DNA from: Salinihabitans flavidus
Lineage (GTDB): Bacteria > Pseudomonadota > Alphaproteobacteria > Rhodobacterales > Rhodobacteraceae
Length of the DNA: 64,000 bases
Assembly: GCF_900110425.1 (NCBI RefSeq)
Contig: NZ_FODS01000002.1
Coordinates: forward strand, 186,001 to 250,000
Direction: 5' to 3'
Below are positions 16,465-57,754 of the stretch, piece by piece (positions within the stretch are counted from its first letter, which is position 1; each line of letters starts with the position of its first letter). Position numbers and translations under genes: made by a program. The notes beneath the pieces were generated by a model that was not told where the DNA came from, searched no databases, and saw nothing but the letters and a program-made list of their open reading frames with translations.

Positions 16465-16524
16465 GGCTTCACCAAATCTTAACGCATCGTTCGCGCCGTT
16501 AACGACGCCGATCCGGCGCATCGC

Positions 16525-16603
16525 CACCGACGCGATACCGACGAAATACCGACGTTTTACCGACACGGGTTTTGGAGCGTTAACAAGAGCTTGAGGTGAG
16601 TCG
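16525..16603 (+). repeat. 80-bp dispersed intergenic element, copy B
   Basis: CACCGAC or TACCGAC motifs begin at 16525, 16536, 16547 and 16558, an exact 11-bp period. GTTAAC lies at 16579-16584 (offset 54) and a TGAGTCG variant of the end motif at 16597-16603. Upstream, TTAACGC and a further GTTAAC (16498-16503) resemble the flank of copy C. The element sits between the convergent small-protein gene and gnd, with its GTTAAC side facing the gnd stop codon. Confidence 0.9.
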
Positions 16604-24851: not shown

Positions 24852-24951
24852 TTTCGGGGGACGGCACGGCGCCCGGCATTGCGCGGATTTTTACCCGATT
24901 TTAACGCCTTCGCGCCGAACGCTGCGTTAATGGCGCAAATCCCGAAAACGA

Positions 24952-25031
24952 TACCGACGCGATACCGACGTAATACCGACGTTTTACCGACATGGGTTTT
25001 CCGGCGTTAACAAGGACTTGGCACTGATTCG
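24952..25031 (+). repeat. 80-bp dispersed intergenic element, copy C
   Basis: TACCGAC motifs start at 24952, 24963, 24974 and 24985 (11-bp period). GTTAAC is at 25006-25011 (offset 54) and TGATTCG at 25025-25031. A flanking TTAACGC (24901) and GTTAAT (24926) resemble copy B. The element lies between the convergent pfkB-type gene and nadE, and its GTTAAC side faces the nadE stop codon, with the end motif finishing six bases from it. Confidence 0.9.
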
Positions 25032-25036
25032 CCGTT

Positions 25037-26856: not shown

Positions 26857-28272
26857 ATGAACGTAATACAGGCATTTTCACTGACGATACTGGGGTTTGG
26901 TCTTTTGGCCGCGCCGCCGGGAATTGCGCAGGACCGCGAGGTGCTGACCAAGCAATACGACGATGGCGGCGTCTATGAGGGCACCTTCAAGGACGGGCTG
27001 CAACATGGCACCGGCACGTATCGGCTTCCGAATGGATATGAATATTCCGGCGAGTGGGTCGAGGGGGAAATCCGCGGCAAAGGCCAGGCGCGCTTTCCCA
27101 ACGGGTCGGTCTATGAGGGCGAGTTTGCCAAGGGCAAGCCGCATGGCGTCGGCAAGATCACCTTCACCGACGGCGGCACCTATGAGGGCGAGTGGCAAGA
27201 GGGCAAGATCACCGGCACCGGCACGGCCACCTATGCCAACGGCGTGCGCTACGAGGGCGAGTTTCTCAATGCCATGCACCACGGGCGCGGCGTGATGACG
27301 AGCCCCGGCGGCTACGTCTATGACGGCGACTGGGTCAATGGTGTGAAGGAAGGCACTGGCCGCATCACCTATCCCGACGGCGCTGTCTACGAAGGCGAAA
27401 TCGTCGCCGGAGAGCGCGCGGGCGAAGGCACGCTCACCATGCCCGACGGCCTTGTCTACGAAGGGCTCTGGAGCGCCGGACAGATCGACGGCACCGGCAA
27501 GCTCACCCAGCCCAACGGCGACGTCTACGAGGGTGACCTGTCAGGCGGCCAACGCGACGGGCAGGGCCGTGTCACCTATGCCAATGGAGATGTCTACGAG
27601 GGCGAGTTCGCGGGTGACAAGCGCCACGGACAAGGCACCTTCACCGGCGTGGACGGCTATGAATACGTCGGGTCCTGGGTCGATGGCCGGATTGAGGGCG
27701 AAGGCACCGTGACCTATCCTGACGGGTCGGTCTATACCGGGCAGTTCCGCGCCGATCTGGCCGACGGCACGGGCAAGATCACCTATCCCGACGGCTCCAC
27801 CTATGAGGGCGAATGGGTCGCCGGCGTGATCGAGGGCGAGGGCAAGGCCACCTATGCCAACGGCCTGACCTATGAGGGCGAGTTCAAGAACGCCAAGAAC
27901 CACGGCTACGGCGTGATGACCTATGCCGACGGCTACCGCTACGAGGGCGAGTGGCAGGAGGGGCAGCGCCACGGACAGGGCAAGGCGACCTATCCCGACG
28001 GCACCGTCTACACCGGCCAGTTCGCCAATGGGCAGCGTCATGGCGAGGGCAAGATCGTCATGCCCGACGGGTTCGAATATGCAGGCGAATGGCAGAACGG
28101 GGAGATCAGCGGACAGGGCGTCGCCACCTATGCCAACGGCGATGTCTATGAGGGCACGTTCAAGGACGGCAAGCGCCAGGGTGAAGGCACGATGCGCTAT
28201 GCCAGCGGCGAAAGCGCGGAAGGCGAATGGGAAAACGGCGCGCTGACCCGCACCTCCGAAAATTCCGAGTGA
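26857..28272 (+). CDS. Exported MORN-repeat protein with about 18 repeats
   Basis: This 471-residue protein has a signal peptide (residues 1-24, ending GIAQ) and then consists almost wholly of 23-residue MORN repeats of the form YEGEWxxGxxxGxGxxTYxNG. I count 18 full repeats and a partial nineteenth. MORN repeats make extended beta-hairpin stacks that often bind lipids or proteins. Repeats 1-9 and 10-18 match pairwise in order. For example, repeats 5 and 14 share NA-HG-GVMT, and repeats 4 and 13 share TYEGEW and ATYANG. The second block begins exactly 621 bp (9 x 69) after the first. The protein therefore arose by tandem duplication of a nine-repeat block. Specific function unknown. Confidence 0.93.
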   Translation: MNVIQAFSLTILGFGLLAAPPGIAQDREVLTKQYDDGGVYEGTFKDGLQHGTGTYRLPNGYEYSGEWVEGEIRGKGQARFPNGSVYEGEFAKGKPHGVGKITFTDGGTYEGEWQEGKITGTGTATYANGVRYEGEFLNAMHHGRGVMTSPGGYVYDGDWVNGVKEGTGRITYPDGAVYEGEIVAGERAGEGTLTMPDGLVYEGLWSAGQIDGTGKLTQPNGDVYEGDLSGGQRDGQGRVTYANGDVYEGEFAGDKRHGQGTFTGVDGYEYVGSWVDGRIEGEGTVTYPDGSVYTGQFRADLADGTGKITYPDGSTYEGEWVAGVIEGEGKATYANGLTYEGEFKNAKNHGYGVMTYADGYRYEGEWQEGQRHGQGKATYPDGTVYTGQFANGQRHGEGKIVMPDGFEYAGEWQNGEISGQGVATYANGDVYEGTFKDGKRQGEGTMRYASGESAEGEWENGALTRTSENSE

Positions 28273-57341: not shown

Positions 57342-57429
57342 TGGTGCGGGCGGTGGGACTCGAACCCACACGGGGCGAAAGCCCCTTCAGATTTTAAGTC
57401 TGATATGTCTACCATTCCATCACGCCCGC
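57342..57429 (-). tRNA. tRNA-Leu (anticodon TAA)
   Basis: The minus strand folds as a class II tRNA with acceptor stem GCGGGCG/CGCCCGC, a D-arm with GGAATGGTAGACA, and the anticodon stem TCAGA/TCTGA around loop CTTAAAA, which gives anticodon TAA. A long variable arm (GGGGCTTTCGCCCC) and T-arm GTGGGTTCGAGTCCCAC follow. The encoded CCA is at 57342-57344. The long variable arm and anticodon identify tRNA-Leu reading UUA/UUG. Confidence 0.96.
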
Positions 57430-57674: not shown

Positions 57675-57754
57675 CACCGACGCGATACCGACGCGATACC
57701 GACGTGATACCGAAACGGCTTTTTTAGCGATTTCAGCGTGTTAACCATGATTCG
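57675..57754 (+). repeat. 80-bp dispersed intergenic element, copy D
   Basis: CACCGAC, TACCGAC, TACCGAC and TACCGAA start at 57675, 57686, 57697 and 57708 (11-bp period). GTTAAC is at 57740-57745 (offset 65) and TGATTCG at 57748-57754 (offset 73). It matches copy A over TTTTTTAGCGATTTCAG between the motifs and GTTAAC. The end motif finishes two bases before the xseA stop codon on the opposite strand. Confidence 0.9.

Follow-up and report, generated by a model that had tools for sequence, protein, structure and literature searches.

Gene boundaries in Salinihabitans flavidus and in other genera of the family Rhodobacteraceae carry a class of short direct-repeat arrays with an invariant 11-bp period, genus-dependent words and conserved sites. 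Here, we describe these arrays, starting from a 64,000-nucleotide stretch of S. flavidus DNA (the window), from which alone the change of word between genera is not visible. No description of the arrays was found in the open-access PMC papers searched.

Results

A preliminary description of the window had reported an 80-bp intergenic element in four copies, and all four (A to D) are present at the coordinates claimed, 723-802 on the minus strand and 16525-16603, 24952-25031 and 57675-57754 on the plus strand. The claimed motif offsets of 0, 11, 22 and 33 hold in 4/4 copies, GTTAAC follows at offsets 65, 54, 54 and 65 and TGATTCG or TGAGTCG at 73, 72, 73 and 73 as claimed, and all four lie clear of the genes that our own gene finder predicted. 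Copy C combines an 11-bp series of four TACCGAC units with a right arm. Its exact four-motif core, with ACCGA at 11-bp steps, spans 24953-24990, and the left-arm word GTTAAT stands at 24926-24931, 27 nt ahead of the initial ACCGA. In the right arm, GTTAAC is at 25006-25011 (short register) and TGATTCG, which contains a GANTC site, at 25025-25031; all of these are on the plus strand. The cores of copies A, B and D lie at 764-801 (long register, with GTTAAC at offset 65), 16526-16563 (short register, with a left GTTAAC at 16498-16503) and 57676-57713 (long register). The multicopy intergenic element is thus real and has its motifs on one face of the DNA, as a protein array would show, but the 80-bp stretch is not its unit: the core is instead an 11-bp direct repeat (TACCGAC plus 4 bp, in 3-4 units). 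Allowing at most 3 mismatches, the four-motif pattern gave 6 matches in the window, of which 4 are exact and 2 are these arrays matched again in a shifted position; 100 shuffles gave 0. The preliminary description knew of no named element of this structure, and an Rfam scan of the whole window at gathering score matched no named repeat and nothing but a minus-strand tRNA at 57345-57429, close to copy D. Elsewhere in the window, the gene at 26857-28272 contains numerous repeats of 69 bp (23 residues) that look MORN-like by eye.

The S. flavidus genome (4.09 Mb) contains the exact three-motif pattern 248 times (136 forward, 112 reverse) and the exact four-motif pattern 98 times (54 forward, 44 reverse), and reversed-pattern controls gave 0 for both. 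These counts make about 150 arrays, or one per 27 kb, if none exceeds four units, which is far above four chance matches. A subset of 105 arrays was mapped (97 with four exact units, 8 with three); every gene call is from our own script rather than from annotation, and all array sets exclude near-duplicates and arrays close to locus ends. The intergenic location extends to 101/105 mapped arrays, with the other 4 overlapping called genes by 2, 9, 9 and 341 nt. The consensus unit is ACCGACGYNAT, 11 bp long, with a nearly invariant word.

The arms with GTTAAC and GANTC are a local feature of S. flavidus. TTAAC follows the last ACCGA by 32 nt (49/105) or 21 nt (18/105) in the right arm, and GTTAAC-like words precede the first ACCGA by 39 nt (18/105) or 28 nt (16/105) in the left arm, so that each arm occurs in two registers one 11-bp turn apart. 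Arms of this type were not seen in the arrays of two other genomes, except for similar words in a single array of genome G418 (locus L411), and some S. flavidus arrays without a right arm adjoin a start codon, for example at lpd. GANTC is present in 78/105 right arms, and some arrays have a CtrA-like TTAA-N7-TTAA in their outer arm; we treat both as local in the same way, and CtrA, CcrM and GcrA are the proteins associated with such sites. A perfect match to the IHF consensus, WATCARNNNNTTR, is found in 19/105 right arms, where chance would give 0.003 per 70-bp window. Similarity extends over more than 100 bp in several S. flavidus arrays. Long-register arrays at five loci (L051, L053, L059, L085 and L086) run into a repeat with TTTTTCGAGTATTTTCGGAACAGAGAAAGG and, farther on, CTCGGGTCAAATACCTCGGGGTCCGGGG.

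Relative to genes, the stop codon of the right-hand gene faces the array in 75/105 S. flavidus arrays, with a median distance of 45-46 nt between that stop and the final motif. The 105 arrays lie in convergent gaps in 50 cases, in the two tandem layouts in 25 and 20 and in divergent gaps in 10, compared with 103 convergent, 139 and 137 tandem and 94 divergent among all neighbouring gene pairs of the same loci. The 88 arrays mapped in other genomes, whose "misc" set contains some chance three-motif matches, comprise 39 and 22 tandem, 17 convergent and 10 divergent cases, and since the two distributions differ, only the avoidance of divergent gaps is common to both. The suggested role as a 3'-end element fits those 75/105 arrays in S. 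flavidus but only 39/88 arrays elsewhere, and arrays also lie directly upstream of start codons (lpd, chorismate mutase). A chromosome-organising site had also been suggested as a possible role, and the full match lists for genomes G293 and G418 show mixed strands by eye; a replichore polarity of the KOPS kind, which a list of only some of the matches had suggested, was discarded on this ground; all 36/36 matches of G418, in this one genome, are on its contig C1.

The three-motif pattern occurs in 1/61 nearest genomes, namely S. flavidus itself, and in 31/394 genomes of the family (one genome per genus). Pairs of the form TACCGAC-N4-TACCGAC were found in 28/394 genomes, 21 of them with at least 4 pairs, one with 2 and six with 1. 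Roseovarius, Pseudooceanicola, Shimia, Sulfitobacter, Sedimentitalea and Pseudohalocynthiibacter are among the listed genera with at least one four-motif match; unrelated phyla also appear among the four-motif matches listed, and viral contigs among those listed for the array pattern.

The same period is found with other words. Reversed controls in the family genomes gave matches in 7 genomes (three-motif) and 13 (two-unit), including G091, G169 and G235, with 3 three-motif matches each in G169 and G235 and 17 and 5 two-unit matches in G091 and G169. Those of G091, G169 and G235, which were examined further together with G079, proved to be other 11-bp arrays, of CCATACG-N4 in G091 and G169 and of GCAGCCAYANN in G235. 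CCATACG pairs occur in 22/394 genera (166 in G091, 87 in G169, 19 in G073, 13 in G140 and 1-12 in the rest) and number 0 in S. flavidus; both TACCGAC and CCATACG pairs are present in three genomes (G140, G290 and G351), one of the words by a single pair in each, and most sampled genera have neither. Further period-11 words, by genus, are AGCCAYA, TGTGCAT and GAGTTAYG. Eight genera were scanned blindly at lag 11, with 100 kb taken from each, and this yielded 4 arrays at a score of at least 21 in G235 (3 intergenic), lpd-upstream arrays in G003 and G001, one array in G018, and nothing convincing in the 100 kb scanned from each of the four others (G013, G034, G069 and G075). With extra sampling, G032 gave 3 TGTGCAT arrays in 129 kb and G001 gave arrays of GAGTTAYG. 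Some genera have mixed arrays, with CCATACG beside CCAGAC or CCCGACG, and thin cases of one array each are GTGCACG (G018), CATATGC (G013) and GGATGCC (G309), while AAGCACG is known only at lpd, in two genera.

Some array sites are kept across genera with different words. Upstream of lpd, 21/80 genera score at least 20 of 33 at lag 11 against a shuffle mean of 0.15, a count made up of 8 among 51 genera not picked for arrays (S. flavidus included) and 13 among 29 that were picked, in a set that leaves out 9 further lpd matches; of the other lags from 7 to 15, lag 9 has 1 genus and the rest 0. The array ends 1-36 nt from the parsed lpd start, mostly 12-36 nt (the parsed start may be wrong in G159 and G199), and at a matching 26-27 nt in three genera. 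The words at lpd are ACCGACG, CCATACG, CCAGACG, TCCGAC, AAGCACG, TGTGCAT and AGTTACG, and G266 passes the threshold (score 20) without a clear word. Upstream of chorismate mutase, 20/46 genera, mostly picked for arrays, are positive at lag 11, with 1 at lag 15 and 0 at the others; the start was unparsed in 4/50, and S. flavidus has no array at this gene (score 10). In 11 genera with arrays at both genes (score at least 18), the two unit consensi share a mean of 8.2/11 positions, compared with 6.1/11 between genera, several of which have one word in common. G309 is an exception, having 5 TACCGAC pairs yet a different unit at chorismate mutase. Arrays also lie 10 and 9 nt (TACCGAC) and 8 nt (CCATACG) from the 3' end of MCC-beta, and the 3' end of gltD and the serC-serA gap are further sites common to genera, with one reversed array each (L522 and L515). 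Such conservation at orthologous sites disfavours the proposal that the elements are targets of mobile elements. Upstream of lpd (L463-L611), a second motif, AAATAC..GGGG or GGGGGCAGCGCCCCC, was seen in 18/80 genera with a loose pattern, between the upstream gene and lpd and usually without an array there.

Array-adjacent genes include one candidate for the binding protein. From 144 genes with an array upstream, 115 were scanned, and the top Pfam families were GFA and BrnA antitoxin, with 4 each. A profile search of 4.4 Mb of collected DNA found five ribbon-helix-helix (RHH) genes, in S. flavidus, G293, G418, a Sedimentitalea MAG and G140, and 5/5 adjoin a same-orientation array 76-90 nt upstream, at loci that had all been chosen for containing arrays. 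All five proteins are above the cut-off for Pfam PF14384 (41.1-58.5 bits, cut-off 26.1); BrnA antitoxins have this family in common with the candidate, whose N-terminal part is longer. The candidate strand is KV[TS]LYLD in the four genomes with TACCGAC and KITLRLD in G140, which has CCATACG, a link of 4 versus 1 that is confounded by kinship; the change from Y to R would fall on a DNA-facing position if V/I and L face the core. An AlphaFold model has strand-helix-helix order but is weak (pLDDT 49.3, pTM 0.31). A PDB profile search returned no relative (one chance match, E 1.1), an NCBIfam scan of the candidates gave 0/5, no relatives were found in plasmids or viral contigs, and no BrnT partner was recognised on reading a list of the neighbouring genes. 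A gene for a cold-shock protein is found close to the RHH gene in three genera (L103, L377 and L505).

Discussion

A word read at many sites would be expected to stay frozen, because an altered reader would lose all of them together. Genera of this one family nevertheless keep the period and some of the sites but use different words, and a genome-wide change of this kind is hard to explain by simple co-evolution. We give about an even chance to a DNA-binding oligomer that is in phase with the helix and has a specificity drifting from genus to genus, with an RHH protein as the leading candidate; its DNA binding, oligomeric state, drift of specificity and function at boundaries are all inferred. 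The protein would bind each array at successive 7-bp words, one on every 11-bp turn of the DNA, and line up head to tail on one face. By occupying gene boundaries it may act in two ways, through operators directly in front of lpd and other genes and, at 3' ends, as a roadblock or insulator, and as its specificity drifted the sites would follow, leaving words that differ by genus. In S. flavidus the arrays would also have gained arms, with GTTAAC kept in the 11-bp register. The putative binder is the RHH protein of the BrnA family, which has an array before its own gene in the five genomes above and would then be autoregulated, although lpd and chorismate mutase adjoin arrays as often as the RHH gene does, so that adjacency to an array does not by itself mark the binder. 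The fuller version, a family-wide system in which one RHH protein occupies dozens to more than 100 boundary arrays and protein and sites have repeatedly changed code together, is tentative and, in our judgement, somewhat more apt to be wrong than right.

The strongest competitor, which we consider possible though rather unlikely, is that the arrays are operators of a global winged-helix regulator of the OmpR/PhoB type (or a MerR-like one, as CarH), with the RHH gene as just another target. The arrays have the 7-bp words and 4-bp spacers of an OmpR/PhoB or SARP operator, ArcA and CarH sites also have 11-bp repeats, and arrays directly upstream of lpd and chorismate mutase sit where operators would. 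Against this, 50/105 S. flavidus arrays lie between convergent genes, where no called gene has a promoter that they could control, and no regulon theme is visible among the array neighbours. Operators of these types are also not known to change word between genera.

A passively spread repeat, of the REP/BIME kind, tolerated between genes without a host role and replaced by new versions, would account for the high copy number, the local arms, the similarity beyond 100 bp in several arrays and the under-use of divergent gaps, as with insertions that avoid promoters; it is improbable, because the same orthologous sites and distances recur in different genera with different words and the arms stay in the 11-bp register. 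It is very unlikely that the arrays act as RNA, as 5'-UTR or 3'-UTR signals for Rho loading or translation control: those at lpd and chorismate mutase are directly 5' of the likely ribosome-binding site and several words have CC every 11 nt, but RNA from 3'-end arrays would carry the opposite strand to RNA from 5' arrays, the reversed arrays at two shared sites favour DNA, the arms step by 11 bp, and TGTGCAT and GAGTTAYG lack a regular YC dimer, for which reason the Rho-site idea was dropped.

Kept sites with differing words, together with the mixed arrays of some genera, make the evolution of DNA-binding specificity across a genome directly testable, and the arrays may reveal a new global DNA-binding protein; systems of this kind escape searches that use a single consensus word. 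If the RHH code-change reading is true, the arrays would be the bacterial counterpart of centromere or telomere repeats that drift, with each genus having its own boundary mark.

Among known systems, the parC site of plasmid R1 is similar in its 11-bp direct repeats: R1 ParR needs at least two of them, proteins of its family are typically RHH, and the repeat that is bound varies among relatives (PMC9426499). However, parC is a single plasmid site next to parM, whereas the arrays occupy dozens to more than 100 chromosomal sites at many gene boundaries. The operators of ArcA, SARP (PimR) and CarH are likewise tandem direct repeats mostly 11 bp apart and bound cooperatively on one face, with two to five repeats at ArcA sites, three heptamers with 4-bp spacers for PimR and three or four tandem 11-bp repeats for CarH (PMC3798270, PMC5930380, PMC9304148). 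By inspection, the S. flavidus consensus unit does not fit the CarH unit, nnnnTnnACAn, and unlike these promoter operators the arrays also occupy 3' ends and convergent gaps and change word by genus. REP/BIME elements, of which one genome can hold more than 100 between its genes (PMC2817692), resemble the arrays in high intergenic copy number and in the IHF-like site of some S. flavidus arms (19/105), but REPs are palindromes, while the arrays are direct repeats in one orientation with an 11-bp period and conserved orthologous sites.
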